Below are positions 10,677-19,683 of a stretch of DNA of 35,518 nt, piece by piece. The position numbers were made by a program, and so were the translations under genes. This DNA comes from a virus, in the IMG/VR virus record IMGVR_UViG_3300020442_003277, positions 1-35,518 of that record. One strand, given 5' to 3'. Position 1 is the stretch's first letter, and the number at the start of each line of letters is the position of its first letter. Under the pieces are notes generated by a model. It made no database searches, was not told the origin of the DNA, and saw only the letters and a program-made list of their open reading frames with translations.

Positions 10677-13600
10677 TTACTGTCCTAAAATATTATTAGA
10701 AGAATTTAATTGATCGACCAAACTTACATCATCACTAGATCTGGGCAGAGTCTGAGTGTTAACACTGGGAGTGCTTGCAGACTGTGCAGATTGCATTGCC
10801 TCAGCAGACTCTCGTCTCAATTGTGCTACCATGGCATTTTGCTTGGCAACGGTTAAGGAGACTGCTTGCAGTCCTTGCGTGCCCATGCCAGTATTAGTTC
10901 TCACCTCAGTATTTACATCATTAGTTTTATCAATCATTCTCCTTTGGTTGTTGGGAGATGCTGGTGGTGCTCCAGGAGAAGAAGGAGCACTAGGAGCTCC
11001 ACTGTTTGATGACGAAGATGAAATAGATTCTGGTTTTACTGGAGTGGGTTTATCATCTCCACCTCCAGGTCTAAAGTGCATTGGAGAAGTGCCAAGGGCA
11101 TCACCAAATCCCATCTGCTGCATGAGTTCAGCATTTTTTGGATCAAATGCCTTATTCAGGTCAAATCCATCAGTCTTAATTCCTGTGCTAAAGGACTCTC
11201 CAATATTTGCATTGAATGGAAGCGAAGTGCTTGCAGTGAATGGGTTATCACCCGAGAAGATTTGTGAATTAGACAAACCTTCTAACATATTTGCTCTACC
11301 TCCACCTCCAGGAGCTCCTGGAGATTCTCCAACAACTCTGCCAGCAAAAGTATCTTTAAACTGTTGGATATCTTCATCACTAATATCTGCACCCATTGCC
11401 TTAGCAAAAGAAGCAAGTCCTCCAGCAAACTCACTCATAATATTGTCTGCGGTCAATTTAGTTTGCTCAGGTGCTGCTTGTGGACCTGGGATTGGCTCAC
11501 CAGTTACAGGATCAATTTGAGTATCTTCTGCTCTTACAACTTGTTGACCAGTTGTGACCCCACCAGCAATACCAAATTCTTTTTTCTTTGCCTCAATTCT
11601 ACCTGCTAATTCATTAATGGTTATCTTTCCATCTGGATTTTCAACTTTACCTGTTGCTGGATTGTAACCATCCAATCCTGCGTTGTCAGCATACCATCCT
11701 CTTACTCTAGCTGCAGAAAATCCTTGGACCCCTGTGCCATCTTTAGTTGCAATAACTGTATCTGCAGGATCTCCTGCAAACGCTGGTAAGAATGTAGAAA
11801 CATAAACATGACCAGTAGAAACCATTCCACGAGAATCTTTCGGTGCCTTATCAAAACTTGGTTTCAAAAACTTCTCAATGTAAGGTAACTGCTCTAAAGC
11901 ACTAGCAGTCTTCAACCATGAGAATGGTTTACCTGTGTTTAGTCCAGACCAAGTATCTGCTTTGAATTGAATTAAACCTGTCGCACCTTTCTTATGACTT
12001 TTGTTTGGAAGGAGACCAGATTCTGATGCCATCTTACCAAGCATGTCAGACGGATCACACTTCAATCTCTTGCACATCTCTACTAGTGCTGCAATAAATT
12101 CAGGTGTTGTCCTCTCTTTAGCAGTGCCAGTTAATTGAAGTTTAGAAGTCTGTGTCCTTACTTGAGTGGTGGTATTGCCATCAGCTTTAGCACCCCTGGG
12201 ATGACTCAGGACAGTTACTTCCTTAGTTCTCGGTCCATATACACTACCGATGACTTTGCCCTTGTATTTGTCATCATGTTGCCAGTAACCACTCCATAAT
12301 TTTTTACCACCATCTTGGGCAATAGCAGAGTCATTGCCACTAGACCCTGTGCTCGCGTCCCAACCTTTAGTTGTGCTGAAAACTAACGCGCCACTAGGCA
12401 CAAGTCCTTTTACAACTGCCTCTCCCCATTCGTTATATGTCAGGGAGTTTGCCGTAACATTTCCATATGGAGACTTAATAGATCTACTCTTTCCAAGACC
12501 AGGAATAGGACCCCAACCCCAGTCTCCAATTACCTGAGAAATTAATCCCCTAGGCATATTACCACTATCAAGACCTGTGGCAACACTTGGATGACCAAAT
12601 CCCGCACCATGTGCTTCACCAGTATAAATTACACCTGCTGTGCATGTACCGTTTCGAGCATATGGACCGTCAGGATTTACATATTTCGGTCCATTAGTTT
12701 TGCTAAAATCAAGTTTAGCCATATCGCCACCAGCGGCAAATTGTTGCAAATTACGCAACCCTCTTTTTCCTAATGCAGCCATATCTGCATTAGATTGCTT
12801 ATCTTTATTTGCCTTCTCTGAATTTGCCTGACCACCAGAAGCAAATCCCTTCATCATACCACCAAGATCATATCCTGCTGCTGATGCTTGACTCATCCGC
12901 AAACCTGTTAGGTTTGGATTGCCCCTAGTTGCAGGAGTATCAACGGGAATTACAAATCCACCATTTGCTTTCTGAGCAACGTATTCTTTACCATGACCAA
13001 TGAATGCAGTAGTCCTACCACCATCCATTGATACAGGATAACCTGTTTGCGGTCCATTAATCCAACCACCACCTGCACGAAGAGGAAGTCCACCACCACT
13101 AGATCTAGACAGTCCTGCCTGTAGTGCATCTCTGCTAGCGTTAAGAGCACCACCAATCTGTTGGGCTTGCTCATTGGTCTTCAAAAAGTCTGTTGTTGCT
13201 TGTTTTGCTTCCGAAGCCTTTTCTTTTATTTCCTCTTTGTTATCTAATGCACCCTTAATTAAAAGTCCAGCACCAATAACCAACCCAAGTTTACTTGCTC
13301 TTCTTAAAAGAGTATTCTTGGAGTTAAGAATATTTTTATTGAGGAATGATAATGCACTACCAAGATCGCCAACGATCTTCATAGGATTCTTTAAATAGCG
13401 AATCGCTAAGAATCCTATAGCAAAACTTTTTAACCTCCGCATCGCTGCGCCAAACTTCTCGCCTGGGGTTGCATCCTCAGACAGCAAAGTGTACAGATCG
13501 TCTACTAATTCCTGAGTCTGTTTAGTAATAAACTTAGTGATTGCCTTCAAGGCATCTACAATGACTGTGATTGTAGTTTTAATTTTTTCTCTATTCTCTT

Positions 13601-14006
13601 CTTTAGATAACCAATCTAAAGCAGCAACACCAATACCAAATCCAATAGTATTCTTCAGGAAATTCATCAGAGCTTCCAAGAATCCTATCTTAGGGAGAGA
13701 TAGTTTTGGTGTTGCTACAGCAACACCTTCTTTCTCTACAGGTCCCTTTCTAGTTGTATATTGTGCTTCAAATTTAGGTTTTTCTGCTTTTACTTGAGCA
13801 AGTTGTTTTGCCTGATTGTCTCTATAATCTTTTAGGACTGCAGCAAGACTATTGACAGTAGTGCCAAGATTATTGATTGCAGTTTGCTGCTCTTTGAGTG
13901 CTGTAACTAACTCCTTTTCTTGCTTAGGAGCATCCTTGTCTACCCTAACTCTTGTAGTGATAAACTTATACGGTTTAATTTTTGCGGACTTCTTTACTGC
14001 TACCAC
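10677..14006 (-). CDS. Giant tail protein with CHAP-like and lytic-transglycosylase-like domains (1109 aa)
   Basis: N-terminus (1-75) is a basic coiled coil; residues 105-225 hold a hydrophobic module with IGFGIGVAALDWLSKEENRE and FAIGFLAIRYLKNPMKIVGD that resembles the next upstream gene. Residues about 440-600 resemble a CHAP/NlpC-type cysteine peptidase or amidase, with candidate C455 in RNGTCTAGVIY and H577 in YWQHDDKYKG. Residues about 630-780 look like a soluble lytic transglycosylase: E662 in GKMASESGLLP followed by GATGLIQFKADTW. A DPDG-type calcium-loop-like sequence NPDGKITINEL (789-800) follows. The C-terminus is Gly, Ser, Pro and Gln rich. A virion-borne peptidoglycan-degrading tail protein, perhaps part of the tape measure, is the best reading. 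Catalytic residues are proposals by motif only. Confidence 0.7.
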   Translation of the reverse strand: MVAVKKSAKIKPYKFITTRVRVDKDAPKQEKELVTALKEQQTAINNLGTTVNSLAAVLKDYRDNQAKQLAQVKAEKPKFEAQYTTRKGPVEKEGVAVATPKLSLPKIGFLEALMNFLKNTIGFGIGVAALDWLSKEENREKIKTTITVIVDALKAITKFITKQTQELVDDLYTLLSEDATPGEKFGAAMRRLKSFAIGFLAIRYLKNPMKIVGDLGSALSFLNKNILNSKNTLLRRASKLGLVIGAGLLIKGALDNKEEIKEKASEAKQATTDFLKTNEQAQQIGGALNASRDALQAGLSRSSGGGLPLRAGGGWINGPQTGYPVSMDGGRTTAFIGHGKEYVAQKANGGFVIPVDTPATRGNPNLTGLRMSQASAAGYDLGGMMKGFASGGQANSEKANKDKQSNADMAALGKRGLRNLQQFAAGGDMAKLDFSKTNGPKYVNPDGPYARNGTCTAGVIYTGEAHGAGFGHPSVATGLDSGNMPRGLISQVIGDWGWGPIPGLGKSRSIKSPYGNVTANSLTYNEWGEAVVKGLVPSGALVFSTTKGWDASTGSSGNDSAIAQDGGKKLWSGYWQHDDKYKGKVIGSVYGPRTKEVTVLSHPRGAKADGNTTTQVRTQTSKLQLTGTAKERTTPEFIAALVEMCKRLKCDPSDMLGKMASESGLLPNKSHKKGATGLIQFKADTWSGLNTGKPFSWLKTASALEQLPYIEKFLKPSFDKAPKDSRGMVSTGHVYVSTFLPAFAGDPADTVIATKDGTGVQGFSAARVRGWYADNAGLDGYNPATGKVENPDGKITINELAGRIEAKKKEFGIAGGVTTGQQVVRAEDTQIDPVTGEPIPGPQAAPEQTKLTADNIMSEFAGGLASFAKAMGADISDEDIQQFKDTFAGRVVGESPGAPGGGGRANMLEGLSNSQIFSGDNPFTASTSLPFNANIGESFSTGIKTDGFDLNKAFDPKNAELMQQMGFGDALGTSPMHFRPGGGDDKPTPVKPESISSSSSNSGAPSAPSSPGAPPASPNNQRRMIDKTNDVNTEVRTNTGMGTQGLQAVSLTVAKQNAMVAQLRRESAEAMQSAQSASTPSVNTQTLPRSSDDVSLVDQLNSSNNILGQ

Positions 14007-14009
14007 GGA

Positions 14010-17000
14010 TTACTGCTCCAAGAGAGGCGATTCAGATACAAAGATGTTAGACATATCTCTATTTATTATGACTGGAGTAGTGATGGGCACAGGCATTTCG
14101 ATGACAAAAGGTATTGTCTCTGATGAATGGAAGTTTAAATCCATCGCATAAGTTTTAGAGAAATCATACTTACCAATCGTTTGTAACTTAAGATCATCTG
14201 CAAATCCACTCTTGGCAGCATCCATAAAATTAACCTTGGGGGTAGTCTCTTCAGCACCCTCAGGTATAATTTGATTACCTTTCTCATCGAATGAAAGATT
14301 AAGGTCACCGATATTTAAGATGTCTTCACCAGGCTTACCACCTGCCAGTGTATTAGCAAAATCTTTGAGCATACCAGGCAATGACTCAAAGAATTTCTTC
14401 GGCGGCGGTGGTGGTGGAGGTGGTGGTGGAGCTCCAGGTGATGTTGTTTGTAGTGCAGGAGATGAAGAATCTGAAGGAGTTACAGTTGTGTCACCCTCAC
14501 CAGTAACTACAGGGATGTTACCTTTAGCACCTGCCTTAATTGCATTGGCAATCTTAGATGCTTCTCTATTAATAAATGCCTGAGGACCATCTAAAATACT
14601 CTGATTTAATGGTGCAACTTCCAGGAGTCCTGACAAGTTATTGCTATTGACAGCACCAAGCTTTCTCTGCGCTGAGTGAATACCATATGCAGCATTTAAA
14701 GCGTTGATGAATCCATTCTCTTTACCCCGTGCTGCCATGTTTGGGTTGATGCCCATCATGCCAGATCTACCCATTGGTGTGGGTGCATCCATATGAAGCT
14801 CAACTGTTGTGATGCCAGCAGCGTTATCTTTATCAATTCTAGAGTAATTGGATTGTGGATTAGAAGTATAATCAACCCTTACAGGTTTCCTATACATCGC
14901 AAGACCACCAGATAATGCAGCTGCTTTCTGTGCAATCTTATCGTTAAAATATGCCTCATTACTTTGATATCCCTTAGCATAAGGCATATGTGGTGCAGTT
15001 GACATATTACCTGAGATGCCGCCACCACTAGTGCCATAAGCGGTATCAGGACCAGGCTTCGTCATATCAGCATGACCCGCATACAGAGCAACTTTACCAC
15101 CGCCAGACAGTTGCTGTATTGACGCACTAACATCAATAGGTTCTGCACCTGTAAGATCTTGGAATGTATTTTCTTTATTCAACCACTCCCAAATCTTTCC
15201 ACCAGAATTCCAGATCTCACCAACAGCAGAGAAGATTGGTTTGATGGCATTGTCATAAACAAAACCAGGAATGCCAGTTGCAATCTTCCATGTCTCTTGA
15301 ATTGCTCTAACTGCTGGATCGATGTATCCCTTAATGGGATCAATAATCATCTCACCAATTTCTTTTGCCTTAGCAAACCCTTCAGCAACAGTCTTGGAAA
15401 CTTTGTTGCCTACAGCCGTTAGCATCTCTGGTATCAGAGTTGCTGGCATTCCAATAAGTTGGAATAATTCTCCTATTTTACCTGCAATATTGCCAAGATT
15501 CCATCCTGTAAATATACCTCTGATCTTTTCAAAGACCCAATTAATTGCAGCTTTACCTGCTTCCTGAATCATTTGAAGTAGGATAGGAGCACCCTCTTTG
15601 AATACTTTTCCTATACCTTGAGCACCTGCCAAAATGGTGTCAAAAATTAGATTGAGTAATTCTTGTGGTCCATTCAGCACATACTTTTGGAATGCTGCCC
15701 AGACTGCTTCACGCCATGGTTTAGATGCTTCCATCAACATCTTACCAAAGTCAAGCACTTGACCTTTAGCAAAATTCCACATGGAAGTGATTGCATTCCA
15801 TGCACCATCCATAATCTGACCACCGAGATTCTTTATGGACTCCCAAAGTCCTGCCCAGAATTCTCCGTTAGCAATAAAGTCTGTCCAAAGTTTCTTCGCA
15901 CCTTCTAATGCTGCTTTACCTAGAGCACCTAGACCTTCACCCTCTCCTGCCTTACCTGTCATGGTGCGGTAGATCCATCCACCAATTGCTTCACCAGCAA
16001 TGGCACCAAGCATAGATCCAACAAATGCACCTAATGGCACTGTGATAGGTGCTGCAGGACCACCAAAGGCACCAATAGCACCACCTGCCCATCCACCTAA
16101 TACCTCACCCAAACCAGCACCGAGACCCTTGGATGCTGCTTCCATCACAGAGTCACCAGCAATCCAGTTGAATACTGCAGTGATAAAGGTGCTAAAGAAT
16201 GGAATCCTGATCTTCTTGATCAGTGCCATCACACCTTTATAACCACCTTTACCTAAGAATTTGAGAATAAATCTCTTAGATAGTTTATCAAGTCTAAACT
16301 TACCAAAAGTGTCGCCAACACCCTTTGTCAGAGTGCTACCTCTTACCTGAGTAGTGGGTGCTAAACTACCTGTTTTGGGAGCAGAAGTTAATCTACCATT
16401 ATTAAGTAGTCTATTTGTTCTTGTATTTGCTCTTTGTGTTGCTTGAGATGGCGATAGTCCATCTCGTACTGCATCATCATATGCACCCGACCAAGCACGA
16501 GCAGCTTCGTTACCATGTAACTTAGAAAATTTATTAACACCACTCTGACGTGGGTTATCAACAGGACCACTCCTAGGTTTGGGTTTACCGTCCTTATCTA
16601 AACCTCCATCGTCAACTCTGTTTGTTGATCCAGTTGTATCTCCTCGTTTACGTCTACTATTATTCTTGCCATCATCACCACTTCTAGTTCTGGAAGGATC
16701 ATAGTTATTGAATAAATCTAATACGCTCAGCAGATCGGTGACCAAACTGAATGGATTCATCAGATATTTTAATCCAATGATGCCTAGCATCATCTGACCA
16801 AATCCACCAATCCTATCTAAGAATCCGCTCTCAGGATCTACTAACTTACTAAATCCATCACCAATATTATCAACCGCTGCTTTGATGAAACCCCATACCT
16901 TCTTAACAACGAAGGTAAACTTCTTCATAAATTCACTGATCATCTTCTGATTATTTTCATCAGACAACCAATCTAATGTAGCTGCACCTATACCAATTGC

Positions 17001-17405
17001 CAGCAGGTTACCAAAGAAACCAACAAACGGTTGTAAAAGACCGTCAAGGAAACTCATGAATCCCTTACGTTTCTTTTTGAGTTTGGGATCTCTAGCTTCT
17101 TCTGCCTTACCTTCCCTCTCCATCTCTGATGAAGATTTAGTCTTACCTTCTTGCCTTTCTTCTGCTAAACGATCTGCTTCTAATCTTGCTTGACGCCTAC
17201 GAATCTCCTCATTATTTTCTTCTAAGATCTTAGCAGATCTATTATTCTTATTGATATCCTCTAAAATTTTGCCGATCCCTTCTACACTGGCACCCATTCT
17301 GTTGAAAGAAAGAGTTGCGCCACGAACCAGTTTTGCTGCAGATGTACTATTAGTAGAAACACCTGCAGGAGAAACAAACTTATGTGCTTTTATTTTAGAG
17401 GTCAT
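14010..17405 (-). CDS. Tape-measure-like tail protein with amidase-like domain (1131 aa)
   Basis: A basic, charged coiled-coil N-terminus (45-115) is followed by a hydrophobic module (115-235) shared with the 1109-aa gene. Then come Gly-rich, membrane-like helices (420-475, e.g. LGEVLGGWAGGAIGAFGG) and long amphipathic helices to about 750, as in tape measure proteins. Residues about 770-960 match the zinc N-acetylmuramoyl-L-alanine amidase (Amidase_3) pattern: KVALYAGHAD (H778), SNEAYF (E817), TTVELHMDAP (H871) and GLLEVAPLNQ (E929). A run of ten prolines (993-1002) precedes a C-terminal part. The gene follows gp26 and its -1-frame extension, exactly where a tape measure gene lies in many tailed phages; its ATG overlaps the TGA of that extension. 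Tape-measure role is inferred from size, structure and synteny; amidase activity from motifs. Confidence 0.7.
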   Translation of the reverse strand: MTSKIKAHKFVSPAGVSTNSTSAAKLVRGATLSFNRMGASVEGIGKILEDINKNNRSAKILEENNEEIRRRQARLEADRLAEERQEGKTKSSSEMEREGKAEEARDPKLKKKRKGFMSFLDGLLQPFVGFFGNLLAIGIGAATLDWLSDENNQKMISEFMKKFTFVVKKVWGFIKAAVDNIGDGFSKLVDPESGFLDRIGGFGQMMLGIIGLKYLMNPFSLVTDLLSVLDLFNNYDPSRTRSGDDGKNNSRRKRGDTTGSTNRVDDGGLDKDGKPKPRSGPVDNPRQSGVNKFSKLHGNEAARAWSGAYDDAVRDGLSPSQATQRANTRTNRLLNNGRLTSAPKTGSLAPTTQVRGSTLTKGVGDTFGKFRLDKLSKRFILKFLGKGGYKGVMALIKKIRIPFFSTFITAVFNWIAGDSVMEAASKGLGAGLGEVLGGWAGGAIGAFGGPAAPITVPLGAFVGSMLGAIAGEAIGGWIYRTMTGKAGEGEGLGALGKAALEGAKKLWTDFIANGEFWAGLWESIKNLGGQIMDGAWNAITSMWNFAKGQVLDFGKMLMEASKPWREAVWAAFQKYVLNGPQELLNLIFDTILAGAQGIGKVFKEGAPILLQMIQEAGKAAINWVFEKIRGIFTGWNLGNIAGKIGELFQLIGMPATLIPEMLTAVGNKVSKTVAEGFAKAKEIGEMIIDPIKGYIDPAVRAIQETWKIATGIPGFVYDNAIKPIFSAVGEIWNSGGKIWEWLNKENTFQDLTGAEPIDVSASIQQLSGGGKVALYAGHADMTKPGPDTAYGTSGGGISGNMSTAPHMPYAKGYQSNEAYFNDKIAQKAAALSGGLAMYRKPVRVDYTSNPQSNYSRIDKDNAAGITTVELHMDAPTPMGRSGMMGINPNMAARGKENGFINALNAAYGIHSAQRKLGAVNSNNLSGLLEVAPLNQSILDGPQAFINREASKIANAIKAGAKGNIPVVTGEGDTTVTPSDSSSPALQTTSPGAPPPPPPPPPPKKFFESLPGMLKDFANTLAGGKPGEDILNIGDLNLSFDEKGNQIIPEGAEETTPKVNFMDAAKSGFADDLKLQTIGKYDFSKTYAMDLNFHSSETIPFVIEMPVPITTPVIINRDMSNIFVSESPLLEQ
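14060..14068 (-). promoter_or_regulatory. Late-type promoter box TAATAAATA inside the 1131-aa gene
   Basis: TAATAAATA on the minus strand lies 54 bases before the ATG of the 1109-aa gene, in the coding sequence for PVIINRD of the upstream gene. It could start an internal late transcript. Confidence 0.4.
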
Positions 17406-17596
17406 CTACCTGACATTTGTCGTTCTTTGGCTCTTCGCTCCTCTTCTTTGAGGAATTGGATCAACATCTGAACGTAAACTTCTTTTTCCCAAGGCATCAA
17501 GTTTTCTATGTATTGTATGTCCCACTTATGGTGATGCATCAGGGCGAAATTGGATTCAAAATATGTCTCCAAATCATTATGTAAAAGGGCTATGCG
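17402..17596 (-). CDS. -1-frame extension of gp26 (probable gp26 frameshift product, 64 codons)
   Basis: An open frame without stops runs from the slippery site at the end of gp26 to the TGA at 17402-17404, overlapping the tape-measure-like ATG (ATGA). It reads RIALLHNDLETYFESNFALM then HHHKWDIQYIENLMPWEKEV and a charged helical end. The first in-frame ATG is at codon 20 and has no obvious ribosome binding site, whereas it joins gp26 by a -1 shift at T TTT TTC, giving about 304 residues in total. The arrangement of chaperone, -1 extension and tape measure gene is that of lambda G/GT and many other tail assembly chaperones. A separate protein starting at TTG or at the internal ATG is the alternative. 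Confidence 0.65.
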   Translation of the reverse strand, partial: RIALLHNDLETYFESNFALMHHHKWDIQYIENLMPWEKEVYVQMLIQFLKEEERRAKERQMSGR

Positions 17597-18315
17597 AAAA
17601 AAGATGCAAGTCCTTCAATAACAACCTCACTCTTAACTCCAGTATTAGGATTCTCAACCTCTAAGGTGTGAGAAAGTTTGGGCATTGTCTCAAAGTATTT
17701 TTGAATTTGCTGGAATTGCTTGCTGTTAAATTGCTCAAACCATTCACGCATTTCTGCTTTAGGTGTGTCTGCACAATCATAAACTTGATTGGTATCAGCA
17801 ATACTAACAATGCAGTCTGCGGCAAGATCAAACACTTGATCTAAAGCAGACCCAGCATTCTCACTATCTTCAACATCAAAGTTTCCTTTGATGAAGGTAT
17901 CCAAACTAGGATATCCCATGGTGATAATAACATCATCACTCAATTTAATTTCATTGGTGTGATCTTTATTCTTGACAATTTTAATATCGTCCAAGGGGAT
18001 TTCAACCTTTACCTCAGTCTCATCATCGTCAGGACATGTAAGATTAACTTCAACAGTTTCACCAACAGATGATGCCCTGATTCTCAAGAAAAGATATTCA
18101 ATATCGAATGTAGCAAGGTCATCAATTTTTTTGATGTTGGTGCAGTCAGTAAGGATGCGTTTGACAGCATCAATCATGTCTTCTTGATCACCTGATTCCA
18201 TTGCAAGAAATAGAAGTTTCTCTTCTTTAACTAGGAAAGGTCTATATTTAACCGCTCTACCATCAGAAGGCAGTTTGGTATTATAATAAGGTACACTTAA
18301 CTTAGGTAATGCCAT
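17590..18315 (-). CDS. 26: gp26-like baseplate hub assembly protein / tail chaperone (241 aa)
   Basis: The start MALPKLSVPYYNTKLPSDGR with AVKYRPFLVKEEKLLFLAME and SGDQEDMIDAVKRILTDC is the recognisable T4 gp26 family N-terminus. A strand region with VEVNLTCPDDDETEVKVEIP and a C-terminal helical part MREWFEQFNSKQFQQIQKYF follow. T4 gp26 (208 aa) is a baseplate hub assembly factor. The gene lies between gp54 and the tape-measure-like gene and is preceded by a late-type box 22 bases before the ATG. The zero-frame stop TAG is at 17590-17592. Just before it is the slippery heptamer T TTT TTC, suggesting that some ribosomes continue into the -1 frame. Confidence 0.85.
   Translation of the reverse strand: MALPKLSVPYYNTKLPSDGRAVKYRPFLVKEEKLLFLAMESGDQEDMIDAVKRILTDCTNIKKIDDLATFDIEYLFLRIRASSVGETVEVNLTCPDDDETEVKVEIPLDDIKIVKNKDHTNEIKLSDDVIITMGYPSLDTFIKGNFDVEDSENAGSALDQVFDLAADCIVSIADTNQVYDCADTPKAEMREWFEQFNSKQFQQIQKYFETMPKLSHTLEVENPNTGVKSEVVIEGLASFFA
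17596..17616 (-). promoter_or_regulatory. Probable programmed -1 frameshift site in gp26
   Basis: On the minus strand the zero-frame codons TCT TTT TTC contain the heptamer T TTT TTC (17596-17602) that allows both tRNAs to slip back one base. Eight bases upstream lies GAAGGA (17611-17616), an SD-like stimulator placed as in dnaX. The zero-frame stop follows one codon later, and the -1 frame is open for 64 codons. Confidence 0.65.
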
Positions 18316-18347: not shown

Positions 18348-19262
18348 TTAGGCGATGGGGGGGTTGCTGATGAAGCCAGACATTAACTGACCACCAGATT
18401 GTGAAGAGTTAGTTTTAAGGTTTTGTGCCGCTGGTGCTCTAGTTTGTGTTGCTGGATTTGGATCATTGATTGACTGTCCAGGAATGGGTAACGGAGAATC
18501 ATCAGAAGCACCAGTATTAAAGTAGAATGCTCTACCATCATCATCTAGAATCTGCTTACCATAGAATCTATATCTCTCGTAATAGAATCCAACATCCAAT
18601 GTGATTGTCTGAGCCTGTTGGTTATTGAGATTCATAGATCCAATATTATATGGAAAGACATTTTCCATATCATACACACCAACTAGTTGATGATTTTTAA
18701 AAAAGTCTGCTTTTTTAGGAAGTGGAATACCATTCTTCTTATAGAATCTTTTGGTTTCTTCTGTCAAGTCAAAGATTTTACCACCACCTCTTTCATACTT
18801 GAAAATATACAGGTGGGGAGCAGTGTAATCATCATAGTAATCAGTCATCTGATTAGAATCACTGGACATGATTTGTATCCACTTCTCAAAAATCATCCTA
18901 GTCTTATGTGACCTAGGCATTCTGAATGTGATACTAATCTGACTGAATGTTGACGTGGTTGCATAGTTATATGCTGCACCAACATTTTTAATTTGACCAG
19001 TGGTTACCTGCTTACTGGGAAGGTTAACACTGTCAGCATAATAGTTTAAGATCTTATTTTCATCCCTTACCTCCAGATCATACTTACCATACAGTAAATA
19101 TCTACCAGATCTCAGGCACCTTGGCGTAGCAAAATTTACAGCATACAGATTCTGTGTTGCTGGTCCATTTTCATTGTCCTTAAAAAATGACTGAAACTCA
19201 GAGATTCTAAAGGAGCTTGAATGTCTACCCTTTCTTCTTAGATAGTTTTTGTTTCCTGCCAT
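18348..19262 (-). CDS. 54: gp54-like baseplate tail tube initiator (304 aa)
   Basis: The middle of the protein has the tail-tube fold pattern: NLYAVNFATPRC, YYADSVNLPSKQVTTGQI, FSQISITFRMPRSHKTRMIF followed by EKWIQIM, then VGVYDMENVFPYNIGSMNLN and TITLDVGFYYERYRFY. This is the layout of T4 gp19/gp54-type tube proteins, and its size (T4 gp54 is 320 aa) and linkage with gp48 support gp54, the initiator on which the tube polymerises. The N-terminus is basic and Ser-rich; the C-terminus is low-complexity, Pro, Gln and Ser rich. It starts one base after the gp4 stop. A gp19-type tube paralogue cannot be excluded, but the position among baseplate genes argues for gp54. Confidence 0.72.
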   Translation of the reverse strand: MAGNKNYLRRKGRHSSSFRISEFQSFFKDNENGPATQNLYAVNFATPRCLRSGRYLLYGKYDLEVRDENKILNYYADSVNLPSKQVTTGQIKNVGAAYNYATTSTFSQISITFRMPRSHKTRMIFEKWIQIMSSDSNQMTDYYDDYTAPHLYIFKYERGGGKIFDLTEETKRFYKKNGIPLPKKADFFKNHQLVGVYDMENVFPYNIGSMNLNNQQAQTITLDVGFYYERYRFYGKQILDDDGRAFYFNTGASDDSPLPIPGQSINDPNPATQTRAPAAQNLKTNSSQSGGQLMSGFISNPPIA

Positions 19263-19263
19263 G

Positions 19264-19683
19264 TTATACCTTTAATTCCTTTTCGGTAATAATCTTAAAC
19301 TCCCAACCATTATCTATACAAAATTCTGCCGCTGCTTTCCATTTTGCTTGGTTGACACTCCAGGTAACAACCTCATTAATATATCTTTTAGTCACCCTCT
19401 TTTGTGTGGGTGGTTCTTTGGTTTGTCGGTATGGTTTTACCTCAACCAAATACTTATTGCGACCAATCTTTAAATAAAAATCAGGAAAATAACGATGACG
19501 CTTACCATCTACAGGAGATATGTAAGGTATGATGATCTCTTCACTTCCCCACTCTTCAATTGATGGTGTAATATCACACCACTTCATAAATTTATATTCC
19601 CACGATGATCTATAAATGATATTAGTAGGGTCACCCTTATACTTCCTAGGAAAGGAAGGTCTATACTTTCCCTGATACCTCAT
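19264..19683 (-). CDS. 4: gp4-like head completion protein, PD-(D/E)XK nuclease fold (139 aa)
   Basis: The protein MRYQGKYRPSFPRKYKGDPT is basic and short (T4 gp4 about 150 aa). It shows a nuclease-like core: SSWEYKFMKWCD (E29), PDFYLKIGRNKYLVEVKPYR with D68, E81 and K83 forming a D-ExK active site, and a final helix-strand KAAAEFCIDNGWEFKIIT. This is the T4 gp4 head-completion family, thought to trim or protect DNA ends before head-tail joining. It is transcribed divergently from gp48, with a late-type box in the 36-base gap. No unusual feature is seen. Confidence 0.85.
   Translation of the reverse strand: MRYQGKYRPSFPRKYKGDPTNIIYRSSWEYKFMKWCDITPSIEEWGSEEIIIPYISPVDGKRHRYFPDFYLKIGRNKYLVEVKPYRQTKEPPTQKRVTKRYINEVVTWSVNQAKWKAAAEFCIDNGWEFKIITEKELKV

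Follow-up and report, generated by a model that had tools for sequence, protein, structure and literature searches.

Lambda-type frameshifting of tail assembly chaperone genes has been described as conserved in long-tailed phages, with T4 excepted (PMC5009743). T4 gp51 is needed for assembly and is absent from the particle, and T4 gp26 is given as a chaperone and a possible part of the baseplate hub (PMC3004832). Vladimirov, Gautam and Davidson (2022; PMID 34826709) are reported to have identified gp26 (TAC-N) and gp51 (TAC-NC) as the chaperones of this kind in T4-like phages, and two papers citing that work describe poly-T slippery signals in the TAC-N genes of T4-like phages, some of which have a longer fused gene of its own standing (PMC12846349, PMC10885494). 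A -1 frameshift has also been described in the Vandenendeviridae and Andersonviridae, including Pseudomonas phage Adele, where a conserved GTTTTT ends the TAC-N gene beside the tape measure gene (PMC12846349).

The locus considered here lies in a 35,518-base IMG/VR virus record of a T4-like marine cyanophage, the whole of which is called the window below; its best-covering DNA match among the matches listed is Synechococcus phage syn9, at 79% identity. An initial annotation of this DNA had proposed that gp26 is fused to a -1-frame extension by programmed frameshifting, in the layout of lambda G/GT ahead of the tape measure gene. The heptamer that it named, in phase with the gp26 codons and followed one codon later by TAG, was confirmed from the sequence at the positions given below, as were a -1 frame open for 64 codons up to the ATG of the next gene and a first -1-frame ATG at codon 20. 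The zero-frame end of gp26 reads GAA GGA CTT GCA TCT TTT TTC GCA TAG, and the features of the region are as follows.

18348-19262, minus strand: tail tube protein, upstream of gp26 (phrog_45, E 1.3e-52)
17590-18315, minus strand: gp26 open reading frame, the predicted short chaperone form, TAC-N (241 aa; PF12322, phrog_150)
17611-17616, minus strand: SD-like GAAGGA, a candidate stimulator, 8 nt upstream of the heptamer
17596-17602, minus strand: slippery heptamer T TTT TTC, recognized from sequence and conservation
17590-17592, minus strand: zero-frame stop TAG ending gp26, one codon after the heptamer
17402-17596, minus strand: -1-frame extension, gp51, TAC-C domain (64 codons plus TGA; phrog_634)
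17537-17539, minus strand: first -1-frame ATG in the sequence, at codon 20, within the conserved domain
14010-17405, minus strand: tape-measure-like protein, 1131 aa (phrog_12696, E 0, and tape-measure PHROGs)

In profile searches, gp26 matches PF12322 (E 6.9e-76) and phrog_150 (E 3.5e-86). Almost the whole extension is covered by its match to phrog_634 (E 1.2e-29; profile positions 56-118 of 121), which is the T4 gp51 family and carries the label "baseplate hub assembly catalyst". The 1131-aa open reading frame matches the tape-measure PHROGs 1272, 167 and 4200 with E values from 2.4e-10 to 1.1e-7. The gp26/gp51 pair adjoins this gene directly upstream, the gp51 TGA (17404-17402) overlapping the tape-measure-like ATG (17405-17403) as ATGA; in some relatives, one small gene intervenes.

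The tape-measure-like protein is one of two large proteins encoded in tandem on the minus strand (10677-14006 and 14010-17405), whose N-terminal ~240 residues match the same PHROGs, a pattern suggestive of duplication at the N-terminus. The second protein resembles a tape measure, although some of the shared PHROGs bear the label endolysin. Also on the minus strand, a gp4-like head closure protein (19264-19683; phrog_218) has a match to PF08722, a TnsA-like endonuclease N-terminal domain, at E 3.7e-22.

Sequence, conservation, selection and homology point to a programmed -1 frameshift by which the locus would produce two tail assembly chaperones, gp26 as the short one and gp26-gp51 as the long one, a reading to which we assign a probability of roughly 0.93. 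Most ribosomes would stop at the gp26 TAG, yielding the short chaperone of 241 aa, while a minority would slip back by one base at U UUU UUC as the P- and A-site tRNA-Phe re-pair to UUU UUU. The shifted ribosomes would then read the gp51 frame, generating a predicted fusion of 304 aa that ends where the gp51 TGA overlaps the tape-measure ATG. If the pair works as lambda gpG/gpGT does, the tape measure protein would be bound by unequal amounts of the two forms, and the gp51 domain would recruit the tail tube protein. The predicted tryptic junction peptide of the fusion is SEVVIEGLASFFR, and the C-terminus of unshifted gp26 is SEVVIEGLASFFA. Neither experimental evidence of the fusion nor a cyanophage ribosome profiling study covering gp26/gp51 came to light in the literature.

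The conservation of the slip site was examined in 192 loci, comprising IMG/VR relatives and 20 annotated phages. In 191 of these, the gp26 frame finishes with T TTT TTN and gp51 follows in the -1 frame, which is far beyond chance; as the site-finding scan itself demanded TTTTTT, the weight of this count rests on only one of the 192 loci failing the scan. The heptamer is TTTTTTC in 177 loci, TTTTTTT in 11 and TTTTTTG in three. The single exception, an HTVC008M-like contig (L174), carries a gp26 stop at about codon 163, upstream of the site, and retains the T run; the early stop is probably a sequencing error or the mark of a defective copy. A first set of 80 IMG/VR relatives all have a zero-frame end of TTT TTC after a T and a -1-frame extension that is homologous from residue 1 or 2. 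Beyond cyanophages, the layout is found in T4-like phages of Pelagibacter, Methylophilales, Rhizobium, Sinorhizobium, Ochrobactrum, Stenotrophomonas, Vibrio, Aeromonas and Citrobacter; among the annotated phages compared are Pelagibacter HTVC008M, Methylophilales Melnitz-1, Sinorhizobium phiN3, Rhizobium RHph_I1_9, P10VF and IC12, Ochrobactrum ORM_20, Stenotrophomonas BUCT608, Vibrio F86 and K575, Aeromonas PX29 and avDM6, and Citrobacter Ci1. Searches of IMG/VR with the Vibrio gp26 yielded no loci, and those with the Rhizobium gp26 yielded one. Relatives lacking both the heptamer and the -1 continuity were looked for and none was encountered among the loci compared, and the proposed G/GT-like arrangement ahead of the tape measure is supported by its retention in all but one of the loci.

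Codon choice at the site was compared across 36 lineages sharing less than 70% identity. Phe-Phe occupies the site in 35 of the 36, the codon preceding it always ends in T, and the pair is encoded as TTT TTC in 31 of the 35 and starts with TTC in none. Elsewhere in gp26 of the same lineages, by comparison, none of 39 Phe-Phe pairs is written TTT TTC (Fisher p 8e-17); because the lineages share ancestry, such p-values overstate independence, but the within-gene contrast is still clear. Judged by these codon patterns, T TTT TTC is under synonymous constraint, more than amino acid conservation would impose.

T4 has both parts in a single protein. A profile built from 36 predicted fusions aligns collinearly with T4 gp51 (profile positions 16-282 to gp51 positions 6-244; hhalign probability 97.6), and five other T4 proteins all score below 3 against it. 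The gp26 part aligns with T4 gp26 at a probability of 99.4, and the extension profile, covering the C-domain, aligns with T4 gp51 207-244 at 72.9 (both hhalign). T4 gp51, the product of a separate and unshifted gene on the strand opposite to gene 26, thus corresponds to the predicted fusion over nearly its full length, and T4 encodes the long form directly.

Alternatively, ribosomes might re-initiate once they have passed the gp26 stop and translate the extension solely as an independent small protein with a start codon of its own. Between the last upstream -1-frame stop and the heptamer, no ATG, GTG or TTG occurs in any of the 191 loci; soon after the gp26 stop, however, an ATG is present at -1-frame codon 4 in 118 of the 191, deposited annotations begin gp51 there, and in some phages the gp26 stop and this start overlap as TGATG or similar. 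A separate second product is therefore possible in those 118 loci. The codon-4 ATG is separated by about 25 nt from a GAGG-like site, too great a distance for that site to serve as its ribosome-binding site. In a further 46 loci (the window and 45 others), the first -1-frame ATG does not come until codon 17 or beyond, within the conserved domain, and purifying selection acts on the codons that precede it: in 41 of these late-ATG loci, pN/pS across codons 4-16 is 0.40 for the -1 frame and 1.17 and 1.34 for the remaining two. As purifying selection before the first ATG acts only in the -1 frame, these codons are translated there with no usable ATG ahead of them. Re-initiation as the sole route would also leave the synonymous lock on T TTT TTC without a role and separate two parts that are one protein in T4, and we regard it as very unlikely.

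The change of frame could also arise in the transcript, by slippage of RNA polymerase on the T run, rather than on the ribosome. The run of six Ts, reaching at least seven in a minority of relatives, makes this conceivable, but slippage by bacterial RNA polymerase usually involves a longer run, a C that shortens the run is kept at position 7 in 31 of the 35 Phe-Phe lineages, and the phase for tandem tRNA slippage is kept as well, so that a transcriptional origin seems more improbable still. Homopolymer runs are, in addition, classic sites of sequencing error, and a single-frame gene broken by an artefact or by decay would look similar in any one record. The same junction in 191 loci, complete isolate genomes included, together with selection on the extension frame, refutes this explanation and leaves it a negligible chance.

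Sequences that may stimulate the predicted slippage differ between lineages. The SD-like GAAGGA highlighted by the initial annotation is indeed present with an 8-nt spacer, but it is mostly explained by conserved Glu-Gly residues. Pairing with the anti-SD across the 36 lineages is somewhat better than expected from synonymous recoding (p 6.5e-5), and the window's own site is no better than its recodings. Downstream, over codons 3-15 after the heptamer, the RNA of the lineage set folds more stably than its synonymous recodings do (mean z -1.42, p 2e-5), a difference not seen in two control regions; the window's own value is z = +0.27. Two helix types, chosen after inspection of the folds and hence a lead rather than a test, cover 70 of 135 unique downstream sequences. 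A long helix pairing positions 6-15 with 27-36 after the heptamer is found in 43 of them (e.g., L083, L040, L152 and L194), and a helix pairing 11-15 with 20-24, in which several pairs are changed on both sides, in 27 (e.g., L025, L029, L043 and L077). The window has neither, forming five of ten pairs in the former and one of five in the latter, and no conserved hairpin near the slip site was found in its own clade. A fold common to all was sought with RNAalifold across 60 diverse loci and rejected, the hairpins being lineage-specific. With no local hairpin, and with an SD-like site whose strength the encoded amino acids alone would account for, the window may have a low slippage efficiency.

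A tentative and rather doubtful reading of these patterns is that T4-like phages have kept the heptamer while repeatedly swapping the RNA stimulator. P-SSM2-like phages may use a long hairpin placed 5 nt downstream, and another cyanophage lineage one of 5 bp placed 10 nt downstream, with no nearby hairpin in the window's clade. The lineages with a codon-4 ATG would perhaps also make free gp51, and the long hairpin may cover that ATG. In the P-SSM2-type loci, the long hairpin contains the codon-4 ATG in its 5' arm. The lineage-specific downstream hairpins of relatives may be a new observation and, with the early ATG of other lineages, are possible additions to the known picture.

In deposited genomes, gp51 is annotated from arbitrary internal starts, as in syn9 (L082, 4804-4947; 47 aa) and P-HM2 (L191, 2289-2381; 30 aa), or is left unannotated, as in ORM_20 and avDM6 (L187 and L192). 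A frameshift would account for both the arbitrary short starts and the omissions, and it suggests a likely function for proteins that hundreds of cyanophage records still label baseplate hub subunit or hub assembly catalyst.

Compared with known systems, the predicted slip at T TTT TTC differs from that of lambda gpG/gpGT, where the heptamer is G GGA AAG. The tail assembly chaperone gp13 of HK97 (2ob9) offers a suggestive likeness in fold: an AlphaFold2 model of gp26 (pLDDT 83.8), built from an alignment of loci from the IMG/VR searches only, has both chains of 2ob9 as its top two PDB matches, at an E value of 0.34 that is not significant and a TM-score of 0.41 by target length, and gp26 is about twice as long as HK97 gp13. 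A profile search of PDB sequences with gp26 gave no convincing match. The chaperone of Adele-type phages resembles the present locus in its -1 shift beside the tape measure gene, but belongs to another phage group and uses G-TTTTT rather than T TTT TTC. The closest system is that of the T4-like gp26/gp51 chaperones, whose protein families are the same; the locus is apparently a direct instance of it. Vladimirov and colleagues are said to have found frameshifting conserved in several T4-like groups, with T4 using genes 26 and 51 instead. In T4 these genes are separate, lie on opposite strands and are read with no frameshift, whereas the cyanophage locus holds a pair predicted to be joined by a frameshift. 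The link between gp26 and the chaperone group that the initial annotation anticipated is supported, but it had already been published (Vladimirov et al., 2022, as cited in PMC10885494 and PMC12846349), and the annotation overlooked that the extension is gp51 itself; the locus fits the proposal of that work, and the mechanism is one already proposed for T4-like phages. The window and its relatives would thereby follow the ordinary rule of frameshifted chaperones within T4-like phages, of which T4 has long been listed as the exception (PMC5009743), and T4 gp51 would be the single-gene version of the gp26-gp51 fusion.
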